From NCBI GenBank assembly GCA_007121025.1, contig SKMO01000080.1, positions 1 through 36,336 of the forward strand: a stretch of DNA of 36,336 bases. Reading direction: 5' to 3'. The notes beneath the pieces are model-generated. The model had not been told where the DNA came from, did no database searches, and saw nothing but the letters and a program-made list of their open reading frames with translations. This DNA is from Bacillota bacterium (GTDB lineage Bacteria > Bacillota > TC1 > UBA5767). This document shows, one piece after another, positions 7,275 through 32,122 of this stretch. The position numbers were made by a program, and so were the translations under genes. Positions within the stretch are counted from its first letter, which is position 1, and every line of letters starts with the position of its first letter.

Positions 7275-7996
7275 ATGCTCATCCCCCATACAATGGCCAG
7301 GCCGATCAGGACCAGCGACACAAGCAGTCCGGCAACGCCCACCGGCGTGCTGACCAGTCCCTGAAGGTAATCCGGATTCAGGGACCGCATCATGGCGAGC
7401 AAAACCACCGGAAGCACCGTGATGATCTGCAGCTCCATTTTTTGTTTGGCCAAAATCACCTCCCTGTCTTTTTCCAGTTTCATCTTCTCGCGAATCAGAT
7501 CACTGCAATGGGCGGTTAACTTGCAAAAATCACCCCCCTTCCGTGAAATCAGCAACAGCATCTCGCCAAACACTTGAATCTCCTCCCGGTCCGAATGGCA
7601 GGCATATTCACAAAACACTTCATGGACATCCCGGTCCATTGAGGACTGCGCCAGAATGCCTGAGAGATCCCTGAGGAACGCTCCCTGCTCCGGGTAAACG
7701 GTTTTAAGCTCGTCCAGGCTGTAGCGAAAGGCCATGAGTCCTGTTTTTCCCGCAGACGCGGCCATTGAATAGGACAGGAGAAAATCCTGGAACTGGTCCA
7801 TATAGCGCTTCTTGCGCATGGAGCCGATGGCTTCCCTTGTCTTCTGAAGCACCAGAATGCCCCAGGGTGAAAGAAGCAGGGCCAACACAACCATGTCGAA
7901 CAGGAACAGAAACAGCAGGAACGCACCCAACACGGCCATCAGCTCCCCACGATAACGGCAACCCCCCCGGACCGCATGGCCAAGCCGCGTCAACAT
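7253..7996 (-). CDS. TadB-like inner-membrane platform protein of the variant locus
   Basis: A 247-residue F-domain protein. An N-terminal hydrophobic region (about 20-50) precedes the cytoplasmic helical domain, which contains DFLLSYSMAASAGKTG and LLISRKGGDF, typical of TadB/T2SF proteins. Two more membrane helices lie near the C-terminus (VLPVVLLAMM and VSLVLIGLAIVWG). The ATG overlaps the end of the ATPase gene by 7 bases (ATGTTGA), and the 3' end overlaps the TadC-like gene, so all are tightly coupled. Together with the TadC-like protein it should anchor the assembly ATPase. Confidence 0.77.
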   Translation of the reverse strand: MLTRLGHAVRGGCRYRGELMAVLGAFLLFLFLFDMVVLALLLSPWGILVLQKTREAIGSMRKKRYMDQFQDFLLSYSMAASAGKTGLMAFRYSLDELKTVYPEQGAFLRDLSGILAQSSMDRDVHEVFCEYACHSDREEIQVFGEMLLLISRKGGDFCKLTAHCSDLIREKMKLEKDREVILAKQKMELQIITVLPVVLLAMMRSLNPDYLQGLVSTPVGVAGLLVSLVLIGLAIVWGMSICSTENL

Positions 7997-9174
7997 ACCA
8001 TCGCACTTCCGGCCACTTGCAATTTGTCCCGGTTCACCAGCTGACTTTGGCGCATCATCCGCCGCTCATTGTGGTCATACACAAACAGCGGGTTCAGCAC
8101 GTATTCTTCCCTGTCCACACCCACCACTTCGCAGATCTCCATGACTCTGCGGGTACCATCGGTGTGACGCTTCAATTGGACAATGATCTCAATGGCTGAC
8201 CCGATCTGCTGCCGGACGCTGCAGATCGGAATATCTGCCGCCTCCAATGCCATCACTTCCAGCCGTTTCAGAATGTCTCCACAACTGTTGGCGTGACCGG
8301 TGGACAGTGAGCCTTCATGTCCCGTGTTCATGGCCTGCAACATATCCAGTGCCTCCTTCCCCCGGACCTCACCCACAATGATCCGGTCTGGCCGAAGCCG
8401 CAGGGCGGTCTTGATCAGGTCCCGGATGGCCACCTGCTGGCCCCCGCCGTTGTGGTTTCTCGATTCAAGAGAGATGAGGTTTTCTTTTCCGTGAATCTGG
8501 AGTTCCGCAGAGTCTTCAATGGTCACGATTCGTTCCTGGGGTGGAATGTCATTGGAAAGAATGTTCAGGAAGGTGGTTTTGCCTGAACTGGTTCCCCCGC
8601 TGATAAACACGTTATAGCGGCAACGAACCAGTTCGGCCAGGAACCCGGCGGCCTCCCGGGTGACGCTTTCACGCTCAATCAGATCTTCGATCGTCAGCGG
8701 CGTTTTGGGGAATTTCCGGATGGTCATCACCGGTCCCTGCAGGGCAATGGGCGGAAGAACCACATTCACCCGCGATCCGTCTTCCAGGCGCGCGTCAACG
8801 ATCGGTGAGGTCTCATTAACCGCCCTGTTCACCTTGCTGACCACATTGTGAATCAGGTTTTCCAGTGTTTCAGGACTCTCAAACACCTGTGGCGCCCGCT
8901 CCATCTGACCGCCCTTCTCGATGAAGATGCACTCCGGTCCGTTAATCATGATTTCTGAAATGGTGTCATCTTCCAGGTAGGGCTGCAGAATGTCCATTCT
9001 GCGCATCGAGTTGTAGATCGACAAAATCAACTCTTCTTTTTCCGCAATGCTTAAATAATGCTGCTTGCCATAATCCAGAACTTCCTGGGTGATCAGCGCC
9101 TGAAGCTGATCATCTTCGACTTCGCGGAATCCTGCGATTTTGCGGTCAATGGTTCCGCGGATTTCCTTTCGCAT
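7990..9174 (-). CDS. CpaF/TadA-type pilus assembly ATPase of the variant locus
   Basis: Secretion ATPase of the type II/IV family that would power pilin assembly at the membrane. About 394 residues. It shows the N-terminal TadA motif [14 protein letters not shown], then [20 protein letters not shown], Walker [11 protein letters not shown] (about 192-201), an Asp/Glu-rich TIEDSAEL box, and the family block [15 protein letters not shown] followed by [15 protein letters not shown]. All key residues look intact. The ATG at 9172-9174 is chosen; TTG codons at 9198 and 9192 lie at plausible distances from AAAGG and are alternatives. It follows the CpaE-like gene and overlaps the TadB-like gene. It is a paralogue of the ATPase at 30755-32110. 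Confidence 0.9.
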
Positions 9175-9184
9175 ATCCAGCTGC

Positions 9185-10282
9185 CTATTCAAACACAATC
9201 ATCCTTTCTAACAGATATTGATAAATGGGCCAGATCCCCCGGGATACCTTCCCCCCGGGGTCAAAGACGCGCTCTCCGTCCTGCACGAGATAGAGTTTCG
9301 TCCCCTCATCCCAGCCGGTCTGCAGCGTTGCCCAGCCATGGCCGGCTGGTCCGTCCGGGATCGGCTTGCCATGGGCACAAGGGGTTCCCTGCCACTGCCT
9401 GACAGTGACCGCCAGCAGCTTATCCCTGAGATCTTCACTTTGGGGGCCGGAAGCCGCCTGTCTGAGGAAGCGTTCTTGACACAATTGTTCATAGGGGTGT
9501 TCGCCATCCACGAGAATCACCATATCGGAATGACATAGAAATTCCCATCCGACGGGGTCGACAGGGCTGGCCGTTTCCACAACGAGCACATCAAAAAGCC
9601 CACAGGCCCGCATGTGCGCCAGTGCTGTTTCCCATTGCGTCCAACTGATCTGGGATTTTTCAAGAAAATGATCCGGTGAGCTGAGAAACCGGAAACGATG
9701 ACGGGGGTCATACGTGAATAGTTTCTGAATGGTGGTTTGTTTCTCCGGGGTGTTTTGATGGAGAAACAGTTTGGTAAAGCCGTTGTCCAGACCGCTGTCC
9801 AACAGCATGTCGTTCAGGTCCAGTGGATCTGCGTTGAGATAGAGCGCGCTCCGGTTCTGATCACCGATCTGAGCGCTCAGGCCCACTGCCACAGCATGTT
9901 TTGTCCAGCCTCCGGCTGCTGAGCAGACACTCACCAGCAAGCCTTTTCGGGTAGACAGTCCTCCCTGTGCTGATGTCAGACAGCGGAGCAGCTGGCTGTG
10001 GATCTCTTCAAAACACTGGTACCGATAGATGGTGCAGGGATCATCGCGGGGCGTCTCGGTCAGCAGGATCACCGGAGTCCCCGGAACCTCCGGCTGATGA
10101 GCCTCATCGCACAGAATCAGATCAGGCGGCGGCCGCTCACCTCCGGTATCCTCTGCCATTGTGATCGTTCCTAGCAACCCTCCTTTTTCTCTGATCCGCT
10201 TCAGAAAGCGGTCTCCATACACATTGTCTACACAAAGTTCGATCCGAAAGACGACCACCCCTTTCCGTTTGATTGTTCCCAC
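9185..10282 (-). CDS. CpaE/TadZ-like protein with degenerate P-loop
   Basis: A 365-residue soluble protein, first gene of the variant Tad locus. The N-terminal 105 residues look like a degenerate receiver-type domain (PPPDLILCDEAH, then TPVILLTE). The segment IYRYQCFEEIHSQLL leads into a MinD/ParA-like domain. Where Walker A KGGVGKTT is expected the sequence reads SAAGGWTKHAVAVG, so classic ATP binding is probably lost. The Walker B position is FDVLVVETA. TadZ/CpaE proteins place the Tad machine in the cell, usually at a pole. The GTG at 10280-10282 is the longest start; its SD (GGGGG, 12 bases away) is weak, and the start is uncertain by several codons. Function is inferred mainly from context and weak similarity. 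Confidence 0.68.
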   Translation of the reverse strand: MGTIKRKGVVVFRIELCVDNVYGDRFLKRIREKGGLLGTITMAEDTGGERPPPDLILCDEAHQPEVPGTPVILLTETPRDDPCTIYRYQCFEEIHSQLLRCLTSAQGGLSTRKGLLVSVCSAAGGWTKHAVAVGLSAQIGDQNRSALYLNADPLDLNDMLLDSGLDNGFTKLFLHQNTPEKQTTIQKLFTYDPRHRFRFLSSPDHFLEKSQISWTQWETALAHMRACGLFDVLVVETASPVDPVGWEFLCHSDMVILVDGEHPYEQLCQERFLRQAASGPQSEDLRDKLLAVTVRQWQGTPCAHGKPIPDGPAGHGWATLQTGWDEGTKLYLVQDGERVFDPGGKVSRGIWPIYQYLLERMIVFE

Positions 10283-14101: not shown

Positions 14102-14144
14102 CAGGCAAACAAAAACCGCCGGCGGCGGTTTTTTTGTTTGCCTG
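14102..14144. terminator. Bidirectional terminator between convergent genes
   Basis: CAGGCAAAC-AAAAACCGCC and GGCGG-TTTTTTT-GTTTGCCTG form a long near-perfect hairpin with A-rich left and T-rich right arms around GGC. It can stop the cotransporter transcript (+) and the Nudix transcript (-). Confidence 0.88.
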
Positions 14145-14176: not shown

Positions 14177-14689
14177 TTAACGGGATGCCAATCCCGTGTG
14201 ACGATAGTAGGCAAGAAGTGTCTTCTCGTCAATCACGGTTCCCCTGGCAATCAGGTTCTCCACTTCCGTCAGGGTGAACCAGCGGGCCTCCAGAACATCC
14301 TCATCCTGGAGCGGGGGAAGTTCGGGTGATTCCTCCAGCCGGACCCGGTAAATGGTCAAACGGGAGTCGTTGTAGCCAATCTGCGGAACGTAGGACACCA
14401 TCTCTTCCATCTGATCTTCAGAAATGTTCAGCCCCGCTTCTTCGATCAGCTCTTCCCGAAGAACACTCTTTGGGCCATAGCCCGGCTTATCCAAAACACC
14501 GGCAGGGATTTCCCAGGTTTCCTGAAGAACAGCAGGCCGAAACTGGCGGACCAGAAGGATGTCCCCCCGACCATTGGTGACCCAGGCGGCAACCGCACTG
14601 GGCGACAGCAGAATGTCATATGTCCGGCCGTCTACCCTCCGGCGAACCACCTTTAACCACCCATCGTAGACCAGTGGCTCTTTTGTCAT
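14177..14689 (-). CDS. Nudix hydrolase, ADP-ribose/nucleotide-sugar pyrophosphatase type
   Basis: A 170-residue soluble enzyme that should cleave a nucleoside diphosphate linked to a sugar, such as ADP-ribose or UDP-glucose. The Nudix box (64-87) reads GVLDKPGYGPKSVLREELIE then EAGL. It departs from the classic GX5EX7REUXEEXGU: the first Glu is Gly, and the spacing is one residue longer, as I recall for the NUDT14/UDP-sugar branch. The metal-binding pair Glu83-Glu84 is kept. The N-terminal SPSAVAAWVTN and LLVRQFRPAV fit ADP-ribose pyrophosphatases. Its ATG overlaps the stop of the mutase-like gene (ATGA), so the two are coupled. Exact substrate unknown. Confidence 0.85.
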   Translation of the reverse strand: MTKEPLVYDGWLKVVRRRVDGRTYDILLSPSAVAAWVTNGRGDILLVRQFRPAVLQETWEIPAGVLDKPGYGPKSVLREELIEEAGLNISEDQMEEMVSYVPQIGYNDSRLTIYRVRLEESPELPPLQDEDVLEARWFTLTEVENLIARGTVIDEKTLLAYYRHTGLASR

Positions 14690-15378
14690 GCCCCCAGCAC
14701 CTCTTTTTTAATGCATGTCATTTCATCACTGAGTGTGTAAACAATGGGCTTTCCCTGGGGAATCTCCAAATCAAAGACTTCTTCAGGACCCAGACCTTCG
14801 ACCATGGTCATGATTCCCCGGATGCTGTTTTGATGGGCCACCACCAGTACACGCCGGCCAATTTTGACCATGGGCGCGATTTTGTTGTCCCAATGGGGAT
14901 AGATTCGCGAGAAGGTCTCCAACAAGGTTTCCCCGGAAGGAATCTCTTCAGGAATCAGGTCCTGATACCGGGGATCATGGGATGGATGCCGGGGATCACT
15001 TTCCTCCACCCGGGGAACCCGGACATCGTAACCGGTCAACCAGTTGTGCAGTTTTTGTTCTCCGTACCGGGATGCAATCTCGTCAAAACTCATGCCCTCG
15101 AGCATGCCGTAATGCCGACCATTCAACCGCCAGCTCTTGTTGACTTTGACCCATTGCAGGTCCATCTGTGCAAGAATCTCCCACAGCGTCTCAATGGCCC
15201 GCTTCAGGACTGACGTATAGGCCAGGTCAAAGACAAAGCCATGCTCCCGCAGCAGTTCTCCGGCCTGTCTGGCTTCCTGTCTCCCCTGATCGGACAGCGG
15301 CAGATCCCGCCAGCCAATGACGGTTTCATTCATGGCCTCTTCTGTACTTCCGCTGCATACCACTACCAGCTGCATCAT
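14686..15378 (-). CDS. GpmA-type phosphoglycerate mutase homologue lacking catalytic residues
   Basis: A 230-residue histidine-phosphatase-fold protein that aligns along its whole length with cofactor-dependent phosphoglycerate mutase (GpmA): TGW-like GWRDLPLSDQG, TSVLKRAIETLWEIL, RLN-RHYG, AHQNSIRG near the end. But the phospho-acceptor motif RHGES near the N-terminus reads CSGST (residues 8-12), so the catalytic His is Ser9. The acid Glu of NERHYG is Gly87 (NGRHYG). The second His (His182) is kept. It is therefore probably not an active mutase. The frame is intact and translationally coupled to both neighbours (HAD upstream, Nudix downstream), so it is unlikely to be a decaying pseudogene. 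The start may be either of two adjacent ATGs (15378 or 15375). A regulatory or ligand-binding role is inference. Confidence 0.85.
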   Translation of the reverse strand: MMQLVVVCSGSTEEAMNETVIGWRDLPLSDQGRQEARQAGELLREHGFVFDLAYTSVLKRAIETLWEILAQMDLQWVKVNKSWRLNGRHYGMLEGMSFDEIASRYGEQKLHNWLTGYDVRVPRVEESDPRHPSHDPRYQDLIPEEIPSGETLLETFSRIYPHWDNKIAPMVKIGRRVLVVAHQNSIRGIMTMVEGLGPEEVFDLEIPQGKPIVYTLSDEMTCIKKEVLGA

Positions 15379-15381
15379 CCC

Positions 15382-16128
15382 TTATACCCCCCGTTCGTTC
15401 CAAATCAACGCGCCTCTTTCGTCTATTATATCTGAAATGTTCATAATGATCACGTCTGCCAACGGCTCCAGATCTTCCCGGGATCCGGTGCCACACAAAA
15501 CGCCAACGAGAAACCCGGCTCCCGCACCCTCACCAAAACGCAAGTCGGTGGGCGTGTCACCCACCATGGCCACGTCCTGTGGATCCAGTCCATACTGACG
15601 ACAGAAGACCGCCATCATTTCAGGGGCCGGCTTTGGCGCCCAGCAGCCGTTGTCCGCTCCGATAAAATCAAAATATGAGGCCAGCCCCAGCCGACGCAGA
15701 CCCTGTCGGGCAGAACCATCGCTGTCCGCTGTGGCCAATCCGATAATCAGTCCCCTTTGCCGCAGCGTTTCAAAGAACCGGGGAAGCCCTTCTTCCGTGG
15801 GCACCACCGGCAATTCTGCTGCGATCTGGTCAAACAGTGCTGTGGATTGGGTCACAAACTGTTCATCGTCCGGAATCATCGTATGCTTTCTCAGCACCGG
15901 CAGAAAATCCAGTGCCACATCCCGGTTGGTTCCCTGAGCCATGGATCCCTCCGGATCAATGCGGACATCAAAGACCCCGATCGCCTCCAGCATTTCCCGG
16001 GCAATCTGTGGTTCCTCCCGATCGTAGCGCTGCAGAAGGCTTTCAACCACCCGGTTTGCCACCGGAAGCCAGGTTTGTTCAAAATTCACCAGTGTTCCAT
16101 CTTTGTCAAACAGGACTGCTCTGATCAT
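15382..16128 (-). CDS. HAD-family phosphatase, phosphoglycolate-phosphatase-like
   Basis: A 248-residue HAD superfamily hydrolase, type IA, that removes phosphate from a small molecule. Motif I is FDKDGTL (nucleophile Asp8, acid Asp10), motif II is ATADS, motif III uses the Lys of APKPAPEM, and motif IV is GDTPTDLRFG. An alpha-helical cap lies between motifs I and II. It resembles phosphoglycolate phosphatases (Gph/PpaX), but specificity cannot be read. The frame continues 51 codons upstream, over the fba terminator and stop, but the ATG at 16126-16128 starts the HAD fold exactly and has GGGGG upstream. Three bases separate its stop from the next gene. Confidence 0.87.
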   Translation of the reverse strand: MIRAVLFDKDGTLVNFEQTWLPVANRVVESLLQRYDREEPQIAREMLEAIGVFDVRIDPEGSMAQGTNRDVALDFLPVLRKHTMIPDDEQFVTQSTALFDQIAAELPVVPTEEGLPRFFETLRQRGLIIGLATADSDGSARQGLRRLGLASYFDFIGADNGCWAPKPAPEMMAVFCRQYGLDPQDVAMVGDTPTDLRFGEGAGAGFLVGVLCGTGSREDLEPLADVIIMNISDIIDERGALIWNERGV

Positions 16129-16152
16129 TCCACTGCCCCCTTCCGCCAACGT

Positions 16153-16185
16153 AAAGGAAGACCGCCAAGGCGGTCCCTTTCCTTT
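16153..16185 (-). terminator. Hairpin terminator after fba
   Basis: On the minus strand AAAGG-x-GACCGCC pairs with GGCGGTC-x-CCTTT around a TT loop, and starts at the fba stop codon. The tail is short and mixed (TTCCTTT), so termination may be partial, with read-through to the HAD gene. Confidence 0.6.
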
Positions 16186-17113
16186 AAAGTTTATTGTCGC
16201 AACCCAGCACGTTGATGATTTTGTGACGCACAATGTCCCGGATGGCATCCCGGGCCGGGGCCAAATATTTTCTGGGGTCAAAGTTCTCAGGATCTTCCGC
16301 CAGAGACTTCCGGATGGTTCCGGTCATGGCCAGCCGCAGATCAGAATCAATATTAATTTTGCAGACCGCCATGGATGCAGCCCTGCGCAGCATGTCTTCC
16401 GGCACACCCTGGGCACCCGCCATCCTGCCGCCGTACTGGTTGATCATCTCCACGTACTCCGGAATCACAGAGGATGCTCCGTGAAGCACAATGGGAAATC
16501 CGGGAAGACGGCGTTCGATCTCTTCCAGGATATCAAACCTCAGGGTCGGTTCTCCTTTGAATTTAAACGCCCCGTGACTGGTGCCAATGGCAATGGCCAA
16601 AGAGTCGACCCCTGTTCGGGTCACAAACTCCTCCACTTCATCCGGTCTGGTGTAACTGGCGTCCTCAGCAGTCACGTTGACATCATCTTCCACACCGGCC
16701 AGACGGCCCAGTTCCCCTTCCACCACCACGTCGCGTTCGTGAGCGTAATCCACCACACGCCGGGTCAGTTCAATGTTCTCGTCAAACGACAGATGCGATC
16801 CGTCAATCATGACTGAGGTGAACCCTCCGTCGATACAGGATTTGCACAATTCAAAACTGTCCCCGTGGTCCAGGTGAAGGGCGATCGGCAAATCCGTCTC
16901 TTCCAGAGCGGCCTCCACCAGTTTCACCAAATAGGTGTGGTTCGCATATTTTCTGGCACCGGCAGATACCTGAAGAATCAACGGCGCTTTTTCCTCTGCT
17001 GCAGCTTCAGTAATCCCCTGAATGATCTCCATATTATTTACATTGAAGGCCCCAATCGCATAACCTCCGGCGTAAGCGTCCTTGAACATTTTTTTCGTTG
17101 TCACCAATGGCAT
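16184..17113 (-). CDS. fba: Class II fructose-bisphosphate aldolase
   Basis: Zinc-dependent cytosolic aldolase that splits fructose-1,6-bisphosphate into glyceraldehyde 3-phosphate and dihydroxyacetone phosphate (glycolysis and gluconeogenesis). The 309 residues match the Gram-positive FbaA type. Visible are AFNVNNMEI, ALHLDHGDSFE (catalytic Asp82, zinc His83), the zinc ligand in TSHGAFKF, VLHGASSV, and KINIDSDLR near the C-terminus. A related tagatose-bisphosphate aldolase cannot be fully excluded. The ATG follows a GGGGG SD. It lies 45 bases after the MFS gene and ends in a hairpin. Confidence 0.94.
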   Translation of the reverse strand: MPLVTTKKMFKDAYAGGYAIGAFNVNNMEIIQGITEAAAEEKAPLILQVSAGARKYANHTYLVKLVEAALEETDLPIALHLDHGDSFELCKSCIDGGFTSVMIDGSHLSFDENIELTRRVVDYAHERDVVVEGELGRLAGVEDDVNVTAEDASYTRPDEVEEFVTRTGVDSLAIAIGTSHGAFKFKGEPTLRFDILEEIERRLPGFPIVLHGASSVIPEYVEMINQYGGRMAGAQGVPEDMLRRAASMAVCKINIDSDLRLAMTGTIRKSLAEDPENFDPRKYLAPARDAIRDIVRHKIINVLGCDNKL

Positions 17114-17158: not shown

Positions 17159-18346
17159 TTATGGATTGGGTACCTCTTTCGAGGACTTTGTCATGAGGGA
17201 AACCGTGATCCCAAACGCCCCGATGAGCAGAAAAGCCAGCGGGAAAGTAAGTCCAAGCGTCAACGTCCCAAAAAACAGACTGCCTAAAGCGATTCCCGCA
17301 TCAATGTTGCTTTCCTGAAGACCCAATGCCGTTCCACGCAGTTGGGCCGGCGTAATGTCCACCAGCCAACTCACCAGAACAGACACCCCTCCCGTGAAGC
17401 AGGCCCCGGTCAATACCCCGGAGATCAACGCAGCGATCACCGGGCTGACTGGCACCAGAAAGAGCATCGCCATCCCCACTCCCATTCCCAGAAGGGCCGG
17501 TTGTGCAATGACCTGTCTGGAGAAGCGGTCAGAAAGAACGCCGGCCACGACACTGCCCAACAGGCCGCTGGCCGCAAAGACCGTAAAATAGATCCCGGGA
17601 CTGGGGATAGCCGGAAACCTTCCCAGGTAAAGTGTGATGTACGACAGGAGGATTCCGTACGACAAACACAGGGTCAGAATGGACAAGTAGATCTTCCTGT
17701 TGAGGGGTTTGCCCAGAATCAGAGCGGTATCCCGGCGGACACGATTGGCCTCACAGCCTTCCACCCGGCGGTCACGAATGCCCAGGACCAACAGAACTGA
17801 AAGAACACCCAATGCCGAGGAAAGAATAAAGAGCCCGGAAAACCCGGCTGAACTATCCGCCACAGCCAGACCGGCCACCGGCGCGACCATCAGGGCCACC
17901 GAATAGAACGACCGCTGTACGCCAATGGCAAACCCCCGGTGTTCCGGGCTTACCGACTCCGCCACGTAACAGCTGACCGCCGACAGAAAGGACGCCATCC
18001 CGACGGCCATCAGGAGCCGTCCCGCCAGAATCAGTCCGTAGTGGCCGCCGGAGAACCAGAAAACCATCGGTCCGGCCACAAAGGTGCTGCTTCCCAGCAG
18101 CATCATGCCTTTTCGGCCCTTCCGGTCTGCCATGGGCCCCAGATAGAATCGAAACACCACACAGAGCACACTGAAAAAGGTGTTTTGAAACCCCGCCAGA
18201 AATTCACCATGGCCCTGCCGGACAGTGTACACAGGGGCCAGTGACAAAAAAATGAAGTTGATGGCGATGAATATGACGGCAGCCAGCACTGTCAGCACAT
18301 AGTCCTTTCCGGTGATCGCCTGCAAACGTCCACTTCTGCTGTTCAT
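17159..18346 (-). CDS. Major facilitator superfamily transporter
   Basis: A 395-residue membrane protein with about 12 helices and the MFS fold. Motif A appears after helix 2 as GPMADRKGRKGMMLLG, and again in the second half as GVLSDRFSRQ. The ligand is not known. The overall style (drug or sugar efflux, YfcJ/YttB-like) hints at export, but this is weak. The ATG at 18344-18346 is chosen because GGAGGACAAACAA precedes it; the frame extends ten codons further without an SD. It is divergent from the transglutaminase-like gene, with a palindrome between them, and lies upstream of fba. Confidence 0.85.
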   Translation of the reverse strand: MNSRSGRLQAITGKDYVLTVLAAVIFIAINFIFLSLAPVYTVRQGHGEFLAGFQNTFFSVLCVVFRFYLGPMADRKGRKGMMLLGSSTFVAGPMVFWFSGGHYGLILAGRLLMAVGMASFLSAVSCYVAESVSPEHRGFAIGVQRSFYSVALMVAPVAGLAVADSSAGFSGLFILSSALGVLSVLLVLGIRDRRVEGCEANRVRRDTALILGKPLNRKIYLSILTLCLSYGILLSYITLYLGRFPAIPSPGIYFTVFAASGLLGSVVAGVLSDRFSRQVIAQPALLGMGVGMAMLFLVPVSPVIAALISGVLTGACFTGGVSVLVSWLVDITPAQLRGTALGLQESNIDAGIALGSLFFGTLTLGLTFPLAFLLIGAFGITVSLMTKSSKEVPNP

Positions 18347-18413
18347 TTGTTTGTCCTCCAATTGACCGAACGCCATTATGCGTTGAATTGTGTTAAGATG
18401 GATGGAGACGATG

Positions 18414-18477: not shown

Positions 18478-20226
18478 ATGCTTGATCTTCATAATCCAAA
18501 ATCGATGGAAAAATACTCATCGGCGGTCACGTTGTCCGATATGGAAATCTTCATCTTTCCGGAGCTGATGTACGCACTGGCACTGGCAAACATCATGTCT
18601 CCTCTGATCTGGGAGTGGAAGGACGATTCATGGTTTTCCAAACTGGACACCATGTCCGATTACCGAAAGATCCATCGTATCAAACAGTATATCATGAATC
18701 ACTTTGATTTTAACCTGGACCTTGACACCTGGGGCCTGACCGACAAGCCCAGCGAAATGAACCGCTTTCAGGATTTCGTCGATGAGGCCACCCTCTCACA
18801 GAGCAATGCACTTTTTGGCTATGAGGGCGACAAATATTACTTTGACATCGATATCCGCCGGCATTTCGGCCTGGACAAATACACCTCCGACGTGATCCCC
18901 TACTGGAAAACAGAGACGGTGGACGCCATGGTCAGTTTCCAGCTGCGGGAGGGATACCGCAAGGGGGCCGGAGAATGCGTTTCGCTGTCCACACTATACT
19001 ATGCTGCTCTCGTGATTCTGGGTGGGATTCCCACCGAAGACATCTATATGATCGCAACCCCGTTGCATTCGCAAAATTTTGTGGATCTTGGGGATGGACT
19101 GTTAACCAATAATCGGCGTCTGGTCACCCATAACATGTGGTTTAATGGCACGGAGCTGTCCAACAAGGCCAAGCGGGCCCTGGTCAACGAACGGGTCACG
19201 TTCGTCTCGTCCAGCACCGGTTATGTACACCGGATCTACGATGAGGCGACCATGCCTGCAGAACAGTATCGCCATTTTCAGAACCGCTTACTCGATTTCT
19301 TGTCCACCGAAATCAGCTATGAGATCCTGGTGAATTTTCTTCGGGAACACAACCATTTGCAACGGTGTTTTCAGCTCGAACACTCACGGTTTGGACACAC
19401 GCTGTATATCCCGATCGAGAAGATCTTCCAATATGAACACTCCAGCAACTTCCGAGCGGGAACAAACACGGAGGAAAAGCTCCTCGATGACATCGACGAG
19501 GATGTGTTTTACCCTCACCCGATGGAAAACCGGTTGTCGCTAAACACATTGAAGGAGATCTTCGACAGCCACAGTTTCACGCTGGACACGCTTGAGCGAA
19601 ACCCCGAAACCCTGACGGATCTTCTGGGCAGCTACTGTGAACGGGCAAAAGAGATCGTCACTGAGCTTCTGGTGTTTTGCCGGACAGTGCCACTCCTGCC
19701 GGACATCGACAAAACGGTTGTGCGACCGCAGAAACACGATCTGACTCTGCGCGGACTTCGCTCCAGAACGGAGATCCAGGAGGCGCTTAGCTCTCTGCGT
19801 GAACAGGATGAACTTGTCGGTTTGGCATTTATGGCCTACAGAGATATCCGGGGCGACTACTGGTATCCGTTCCTGAAAGCCAGCCTGGAACGCAATCCGG
19901 TCTGCCTGGCCGCCACCCGGGATTTGGCGCCACGGACCATCTATGAGCAGCTTCTGAAACTCCCGAATCAATCGATCTACAGTGAGGACCGGTTGGCCCA
20001 ACCGGATGAAGTTCACAATTTTGGAACCGGCGACGGTCTGGAAAAGGCGCTCTACCTCTTAACGGTGCTGAACAGGAATGAACCCCGGACCATCTGGACT
20101 CTGTCCCGCAATGGGAGCAAAGTCACTCTGCGCTACGGTGACACCGTCTACGTTTTCCTCACCGCCAAAAACTGCCTGATCCCCGAAAATTTGTATGAAA
20201 AAGCAATGGAACTGGCCATCGGCTAG
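18478..20226 (+). CDS. Cytosolic protein with transglutaminase-like Cys-His-Asp core
   Basis: A 582-residue protein of no family I can name. It has no signal peptide or clear membrane helix. The central part resembles the transglutaminase/cysteine-protease fold: GAGECVSLSTLYYAALVILG (nucleophile candidate Cys167), then ATPLHSQNFVDLGDGLLTNN with His197 and Asp206 or Asn211 as partners. The first 150 residues are acidic and Trp/Tyr-rich; the last 350 are helical, with repeated Leu-rich stretches and no recognised motif. The ATG has AAAAGGAG 7 bases upstream. It stands alone on the plus strand, divergent from the MFS gene and followed by a glucosaminidase. A peptide-bond or amide reaction on a cytosolic substrate is likely but unproven. 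Confidence 0.75.
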   Translation: MLDLHNPKSMEKYSSAVTLSDMEIFIFPELMYALALANIMSPLIWEWKDDSWFSKLDTMSDYRKIHRIKQYIMNHFDFNLDLDTWGLTDKPSEMNRFQDFVDEATLSQSNALFGYEGDKYYFDIDIRRHFGLDKYTSDVIPYWKTETVDAMVSFQLREGYRKGAGECVSLSTLYYAALVILGGIPTEDIYMIATPLHSQNFVDLGDGLLTNNRRLVTHNMWFNGTELSNKAKRALVNERVTFVSSSTGYVHRIYDEATMPAEQYRHFQNRLLDFLSTEISYEILVNFLREHNHLQRCFQLEHSRFGHTLYIPIEKIFQYEHSSNFRAGTNTEEKLLDDIDEDVFYPHPMENRLSLNTLKEIFDSHSFTLDTLERNPETLTDLLGSYCERAKEIVTELLVFCRTVPLLPDIDKTVVRPQKHDLTLRGLRSRTEIQEALSSLREQDELVGLAFMAYRDIRGDYWYPFLKASLERNPVCLAATRDLAPRTIYEQLLKLPNQSIYSEDRLAQPDEVHNFGTGDGLEKALYLLTVLNRNEPRTIWTLSRNGSKVTLRYGDTVYVFLTAKNCLIPENLYEKAMELAIG

Positions 20227-30754: not shown

Positions 30755-32110
30755 TTAAAACATTGAGGGATTAAAGAGCGCCGATGGAAGCACGATTCCA
30801 TTTGACACCAGGGTGTCCGTAAACCGGGGGCGAATGCCTGTTGCAATAAATTCTCCCTGCACCTTGCCCTGCTCATCAATGCCCGACTGTTTGAACAGAA
30901 ACAGATCCTGGAGGGTGATCACGTCTCCCTCCATCCCCTGGACTTCCGTCACATGGGTAATCCTGCGGGACCCGTCCCGCAGGCGGCTCTGGTGAATGAT
31001 CAGATCCACGGCCGATGCGATCTGCTCCCGGATGGCCCGGACCGGAAGATCCATCCCCGCCATCAGAACCATGGTTTCCAGCCTGGCCACCATGTCCCGG
31101 GGAGTGTTGGCGTGTCCTGTGGTCAGCGACCCGTCATGCCCGGTGTTCATCGCCTGGAGCATATCCAGGGCTTCACCGCTTCGGACCTCTCCGACCACAA
31201 TCCGGTCGGGACGCATCCGCAAGGAGTTTTTCACCAGATCCCGGATGGAGACAGCGCCCTTCCCTTCAATGTTGGGGGGCCTGCTTTCCAGGGTCACCAC
31301 ATGAGGTTGCCGCAGCTGAATTTCCGCTGCGTCCTCAATGGTCACAATCCGGTCACTTTCCGGAATGAATGAGGACAACACATTCAATGTGGTGGTTTTC
31401 CCGCTTCCGGTTCCACCGGAGACAATGACATTGAGTCTTCCCCGGACGCAGGCTTCCAGAAAGTCGGCCATCTCGCGGGTCAGTGTGCCAAATCCGATCA
31501 GATCCGCTACGGTGAAGGGATCGGCGGCAAATTTTCGGATCGTAATGCTTGGTCCCTTCAGCGCCAGTGGTGGAATCACTGCGTTCACCCGGGAACCGTC
31601 CGGAAGCCGGGCATCCACCATGGGACTGGATTCATCGATCCGCCGCCCCAGGGGCGCGACGATCCGTTCAATCACATGGAGCACATGCTCATCATCCCGA
31701 AACACAATGTTTGTCAGCTCCAGTTTTCCACTGCGCTCGGCATAGACCTGTTCCGGACCATTGACCATCACTTCACTGACGTTGTCATCCTGCAGCAACG
31801 GGTTGATCGGCCCGTAACCAATGATTTCATCGACCATTTCCTGCTTCAGGCGAAGACGGTCCATCCGCAGCTGGGATTCACTGCCCTTTTCCTGAACCAA
31901 CTGGTCCACCAGTTCACCGATCCGTTTGACCATGGCCTTATCGTCTTCTTTTTCTTCTGCTTTAACATTTTTCAATTTGTCGACGATCATGCCATGGAGT
32001 TCCTGTTTCCATTTCAGATGGGGATCCGCCGGGCGACAGACCTGTCGAGGCTGCTCGTCCGGGGACTGTTGCTGTTCCGATCGTTTCTCAAGTTTCTGAA
32101 GCAATGACAT
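30755..32110 (-). CDS. tadA: Tad pilus assembly ATPase TadA/CpaF
   Basis: A 451-residue secretion ATPase that powers assembly of the Flp pilus. It has a charged N-terminal region, the NTD motif LLQDDNVSEVMVNGPE (about 105-120), SSPMVDARLPDGSRVNAVIP, Walker A SGGTGSGKTTTLN (231-243), the acidic box TIEDAAEIQLRQPH, and [15 protein letters not shown] followed by MNTGHDGSLTTGHAN. All catalytic residues look intact. The ATG follows AGGGGTGA. It lies between tadZ and tadB. The symbol follows the Tad nomenclature (also cpaF), not the tRNA deaminase. Confidence 0.95.
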   Translation of the reverse strand: MSLLQKLEKRSEQQQSPDEQPRQVCRPADPHLKWKQELHGMIVDKLKNVKAEEKEDDKAMVKRIGELVDQLVQEKGSESQLRMDRLRLKQEMVDEIIGYGPINPLLQDDNVSEVMVNGPEQVYAERSGKLELTNIVFRDDEHVLHVIERIVAPLGRRIDESSPMVDARLPDGSRVNAVIPPLALKGPSITIRKFAADPFTVADLIGFGTLTREMADFLEACVRGRLNVIVSGGTGSGKTTTLNVLSSFIPESDRIVTIEDAAEIQLRQPHVVTLESRPPNIEGKGAVSIRDLVKNSLRMRPDRIVVGEVRSGEALDMLQAMNTGHDGSLTTGHANTPRDMVARLETMVLMAGMDLPVRAIREQIASAVDLIIHQSRLRDGSRRITHVTEVQGMEGDVITLQDLFLFKQSGIDEQGKVQGEFIATGIRPRFTDTLVSNGIVLPSALFNPSMF

Positions 32111-32122
32111 GCTGGTTCACCC

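Follow-up and report, generated by a model that had tools for sequence, protein, structure and literature searches.

Pairs of dPGM and iPGM, and the gains and losses of either, have been surveyed (PMC2964296); that survey calls their roles uncertain when both are present and describes pseudogenes that are truncations or carry in-frame stops. Human BPGM has the same fold as the protein described below and is an active enzyme with its catalytic set intact, in which R10, E89, K/R100, R116, R117 and N17 contact ligands (PMC8972806). Proteins that work alike are found among the pseudophosphatases (STYX, MK-STYX and the inactive myotubularins), where a catalytically dead phosphatase fold serves as a binding or regulatory partner. 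These proteins have other folds and are eukaryotic, and no homology to them is implied here. Pseudophosphatases of other folds are well known. Our literature search found no paper on a conserved bacterial pseudo-dPGM, which is not proof of absence.

We describe a homologue of dPGM (GpmA) that has lost nearly its whole active site, encoded in a window of 36,336 nucleotides (the whole stretch of DNA that was analysed; Table 1) from a member of an uncultured bacterial family. The genome of this organism comprises 198 contigs and 2.23 Mb and is 86.9% complete. Three further genomes of the family, all from another genus, carry the pseudo-dPGM at about 57% identity to the window copy, giving a set of four independent assemblies from two genera, which cover the four known species of the family. 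Ten genomes of the class were compared; they represent two families, in one of which the genomes are markedly smaller (1.1-1.7 Mb). The reading that we prefer, at a probability of about 0.55, is that of a lineage-specific pseudoenzyme derived from dPGM that acts as a non-catalytic binding protein, regulator or scaffold of an operon enzyme.

Table 1. Features of the pseudo-dPGM locus (window positions)
Feature	Positions	Strand	Remarks
Pseudo-dPGM gene	14686..15378	-	GpmA homologue without active site, 230 aa
CSGST (residues 8-12)	15343..15357	-	For RHGES; phospho-His pocket lost
NGRHYG (residues 86-91)	15106..15123	-	For NERHYG; acid Glu89 replaced by Gly
LTG (residues 114-116)	15031..15039	-	For RRS; second phosphate site Arg116/Arg117 lost
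Residues 129-173	14860..14994	-	New constraint centre, far more conserved than in intact dPGMs
HQN (residues 182-184)	14827..14835	-	His184 and Asn186 kept, Gly185 lost (H in relatives)
HAD phosphatase	15382..16134	-	ATG at 16134 by homology; longer TTG ORF overlaps fba
Nudix hydrolase	14177..14689	-	ADP-ribose-pyrophosphatase-like
fba	16184..17113	-	Class II fructose-bisphosphate aldolase
MFS transporter	17159..18376	-	Upstream of fba, kept beside fba in relatives
10-bp GC-rich hairpin and T tract	14111..14133		Between convergent Nudix and Na/Pi-cotransporter genes; pattern match only

Family membership and the active site

The pseudo-dPGM opens with ATG and keeps a clean frame (ORF list and translation). 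In profile searches TIGR01258 covers the protein end to end with 254 bits (cut-off 81.7) and is matched by the pseudo-dPGMs of all four family members, while PF00300 scores 94.4 bits against a gathering cut-off of 21.7 and places the protein by descent in branch 1 of the histidine phosphatase superfamily. Among solved structures the best match is E. coli GpmA (1e58, E = 6.5e-64, residues 3-229), and identity to dPGMs over the full length is about 40-47%. The TIGR01258 and 1e58 matches bear out the original prediction of a full-length GpmA homologue. An AlphaFold2 model built from six sequences (mean pLDDT 66, pTM 0.67) retrieved dPGMs first in Foldseek (3fdz and 1e58, TM about 0.75), and all of the 50 hits listed were dPGM or BPGM structures, which supports a dPGM fold for the predicted structure. 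The pLDDT of the model falls below 50 at residues 15-24, 79-96 and 114-157; the cap (114-157) is unreliable and much of the region 129-173 is poorly modelled.

Compared with dPGM, and in E. coli numbering, the protein lacks the phospho-His, Arg10, Glu89, Glu13, Asn17, Thr23, Lys100, Arg116, Arg117 and Gly185. The alignment reveals CSG[ST]T, NGR[HY]YG, no arginine pair, and HHN or HQN in all four family genomes. The phospho-accepting His of RHGE is absent from 4/4 pseudo-dPGMs, with RHG present in 23/23 intact homologues, and position 89 is Gly in the former four but Glu in all 23 of the latter. Arg116, Arg117 and Lys/Arg100 have become M/L, H/N/T and Y/E/F in the four proteins, and Asn17, Thr23 and Glu13 are also replaced. 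Gly12, Gly24, Tyr92 and Asn186 are kept in common with dPGM, as are Arg62 and the second catalytic histidine, His184 (both in 4/4), and C8, S9, G10 and T12 are invariant within the clade. The intact set consisted of 20 GpmA-type proteins found among 399 genomes drawn from the phylum and three proteins of Planctomycetota from the genome collection; their active-site motifs are intact in 23 of 23, except that five have Q or L in place of Glu13. The replacement of RHGES by CSGST and of NERHYG by NGRHYG, which had been predicted, is accompanied by further losses (R116/R117, K100, N17, T23, E13 and Gly185). One of these falls within AHQNSIRG, which had been taken for a preserved GpmA motif: where AHGNSLR has Gly after the catalytic His, this protein has Gln and its three relatives have His. 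The missing C-terminal tail was ruled out as an inactivating lesion, several intact homologues being equally short.

In the 23 intact proteins, 81 positions reach an invariance of at least 90%. Sixteen of them are on our list of active-site positions, one part of which was assigned from dPGM structures. The other part of the list was taken from the structure of BPGM (PMC8972806). Ten of these 16 positions were lost in all four pseudo-dPGMs; outside the list, the same holds for 13 of 65 (Fisher p = 0.0016), and 39 of the 65 were unchanged in all four. Consequently, the dPGM core is largely kept and the active site is stripped. Judged from these residues, canonical catalysis is almost certainly lost, and annotation pipelines would name the protein a phosphoglycerate mutase though the known mechanism is impossible for it.

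The pattern of losses bears on the proposal, made in the original prediction, that 2,3-BPG or 3-PG is bound as before and that the protein acts as a glycolytic sensor, which would then signal to the HAD or Nudix enzyme. Retention of Arg62, His184, Tyr92 and Asn186 and the presence of fba in the operon are compatible with such a sensor. However, all of the BPGM ligand contacts R10, E89, K/R100, R116, R117 and N17 are lost (PMC8972806), and position 23 carries a different side chain. With the basic pocket residues R10, K100, R116 and R117 gone together with E89, N17 and T23, most phosphate ligands are missing, which weakens the proposal and makes it highly unlikely. Binding of 2,3-BPG in the canonical mode is in any case not likely. 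A single phosphate held by Arg62, His184, Tyr92 and Asn186 is possible, in which case the ligand could be a small monophosphorylated one.

Conservation and selection

A tree with the intact homologues groups the four pseudo-dPGMs in one clade (support 100/99) on a long stem. CSGST and NGRHYG are conserved together in all four family genomes, and none of the three relatives of the window's genome carries an intact RHGE or NERHYG. A scan of the genome collection for relatives returned only two genomes of the same family and three intact dPGMs of Planctomycetota. No relative was detected in the viral contigs searched, and the only relatives in phage and plasmid records, which were compared by identity alone, are less than 60% identical to the pseudo-dPGM.

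Non-synonymous distances of the pseudo-dPGM ranged from 0.10 to 0.36 across species pairs, against 0.17-0.58 for the HAD gene, 0.23-0.65 for the Nudix gene and 0.04-0.12 for fba; because dS was saturated in nearly every comparison, dN was used alone and no dN/dS ratio was formed. In every species pair the pseudo-dPGM evolved more slowly than its HAD and Nudix neighbors and faster than fba. By this measure, the gene is under purifying selection, with stronger constraint than these two neighbors. The view that we are dealing with a decaying or recently mutated gpmA, or with an error of assembly, is hardly credible: we found nothing in its favor, and the same lesions, clean frames and low dN recur in four independent genomes. 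Recent mutation and sequencing error are ruled out by the agreement of the four assemblies, and the lesion is thus not a matter of chance. We regard the protein as a pseudoenzyme because the loss is common to its orthologues (four genomes of one clade) and is accompanied by purifying selection. The idea of a conserved pseudoenzyme is strongly supported, given lesions in all four genomes, the signature of selection, and the presence of GpmI.

Operon, sister family and the mutase step

The tight coupling noticed at the outset is confirmed: in the window, 3 nt separate the HAD stop from the pseudo-dPGM start, and the end of the pseudo-dPGM gene shares 4 nt (ATGA) with the beginning of the Nudix gene. 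The pseudo-dPGM is probably co-expressed with fba, HAD and Nudix, and the hairpin that follows the Nudix gene is likely a terminator. A second GC-rich hairpin with a weak T tract lies at 16158-16177 (-), immediately past the end of fba and ahead of HAD; it could act as an attenuator between fba and the genes that follow. The order MFS-fba-HAD-pseudo-dPGM-Nudix, followed by a convergent Na/Pi cotransporter with PhoU domains, was found in 4/4 family genomes. Since a block of about 15 kb around the gene is collinear in the relatives, this synteny alone says little about partnership.

In each of the six genomes of the sister family, fba, HAD and Nudix form an unbroken run in which about 15 nt separate HAD from Nudix, and none of the six has a dPGM. 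The fba-HAD-Nudix genes thus form a shared cassette to which the pseudo-dPGM is accessory, either as an insertion in one family or as a loss in the other. Because these enzymes do without the pseudo-dPGM in the sister family, the case for an obligate partnership with HAD or Nudix is weakened; a facultative partner or regulator is the part of the original proposal that survives as our best guess.

The HAD protein retains intact DKDGT, T, K and GDT motifs and matches phosphoglycolate phosphatase models, at scores well below their cut-offs. Its TAL-effector hits were discarded as sums of many insignificant repeat matches. A ligand such as 2-phosphoglycolate, or another small monophosphate putatively handled by the HAD enzyme, might be bound or sensed at the dimer interface or at a remodelled site, and human BPGM does bind 2-phosphoglycolate at the dimer interface and in the active site (PMC8972806). 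However, neither His65 nor Glu72, which belong to the interface in BPGM, lies within the newly constrained region; we consider this distinctly unlikely. In the Nudix box (14177-14689, -), which reads EELIEEAGL, Glu takes the place of the Arg in REUxEExGU, and the Glu of GX5E is missing. Because the R-to-E change is common to all four family members and one sister-family genome (G005, L085), the protein looks, by its sequence, like a divergent ADP-ribose-pyrophosphatase-like subfamily.

GpmI, an unrelated mutase that performs the same glycolytic step as dPGM, is encoded elsewhere in 10/10 genomes of the class. In the four family genomes GpmI is intact and keeps the serine motif NSEVG; its gene neighbors tpi in the window's genome and eno in the relatives. 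The window's genome encodes just one other His_Phos_1 protein, which is short. From gene content, we infer that GpmI carries out the glycolytic phosphoglycerate mutase step. The locus thereby offers a clean natural case of an enzyme kept for another role while a non-homologous isofunctional enzyme serves its reaction.

Constraint on residues 129-173 and the proposed role

Residues 129-173 are 73-80% identical between genera, compared to about 51% elsewhere in the pseudo-dPGM. The difference between this region and the rest was +0.13 to +0.30 in six of six pseudo-dPGM pairs, whereas in 241 intact pairs of 45-75% identity it averaged -0.21 and never exceeded 0.00. At equal overall identity (56%), residues 128-175 were conserved at 0.76 in pseudo-dPGMs and 0.40 in intact pairs, and residues 1-30 and 108-127 were less conserved in the former. 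Among sites variable in intact dPGMs, 15 of 27 were fixed in the region versus 12 of 56 elsewhere (p = 0.003); p-values are indicative, the region having been picked as the best-scoring stretch and the pairs, from two genera, not being independent. The rate of same-codon use at identical residues was higher in the region than in the rest in three pairs and lower in three. The signal of constraint therefore resides in the protein, and an overlapping antisense ORF or RNA was ruled out as its cause; antisense ORF matches are read as by-products of coding on the other strand. As far as alignments can tell, these comparisons show that constraint has moved from the active site to residues 129-173.

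This shift also weighs on the possibility that the dPGM fold was rebuilt around C8/S9, with Arg62 and His184, into a new phosphatase, transferase or lyase. The invariance of C8, S9, G10 and T12 and the preservation of Arg62, Tyr92, His184 and Asn186 favor it, and the invariant C8 and S9 leave room for new chemistry, a point that counts against a pseudoenzyme. However, no acid stands in place of Glu89 at its own position, and the pocket-lining segments (1-30 and 108-127) are less conserved than in intact dPGMs, when catalytic constraint predicts the reverse. We consider a new enzyme unlikely.

The best explanation of the shift is a binding or regulatory role exerted through residues 129-173, with a plausible partner among the operon products. 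The pseudo-dPGM would keep the dPGM fold but form no phospho-histidine and bind no bisphosphoglycerate cofactor in the canonical way, with GpmI, by gene content, taking the glycolytic step. It would act on the aldolase, HAD or Nudix enzyme, the putative partner, as a regulator or scaffold, and its working surface would be residues 129-173, which take in part of the cap region and the helix that follows. A small monophosphorylated ligand, presumably held by Arg62, His184, Tyr92 and Asn186, may gate this activity. More specifically, and only tentatively, the former mutase may now serve the aldolase operon as a dedicated regulatory subunit that binds through a surface formed by part of the old cap and the helix next to it. 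If true, it would be, as far as we found, the first time that a defined function is assigned to a pseudo-dPGM from bacteria. Mutation and binding tests could be aimed directly at residues 129-173.

Two other features of the window deserve mention. A divergently oriented neighbor of the MFS-fba operon (18478-20226, +) encodes a 582-aa protein that is about 59% identical in 3/3 relatives; it has no match in Pfam or NCBIfam and is a conserved orphan family. Finally, two TadA/VirB11-type secretion ATPases (7993-9198, -, and 30758-32116, -) suggest two Tad-like pilus loci.
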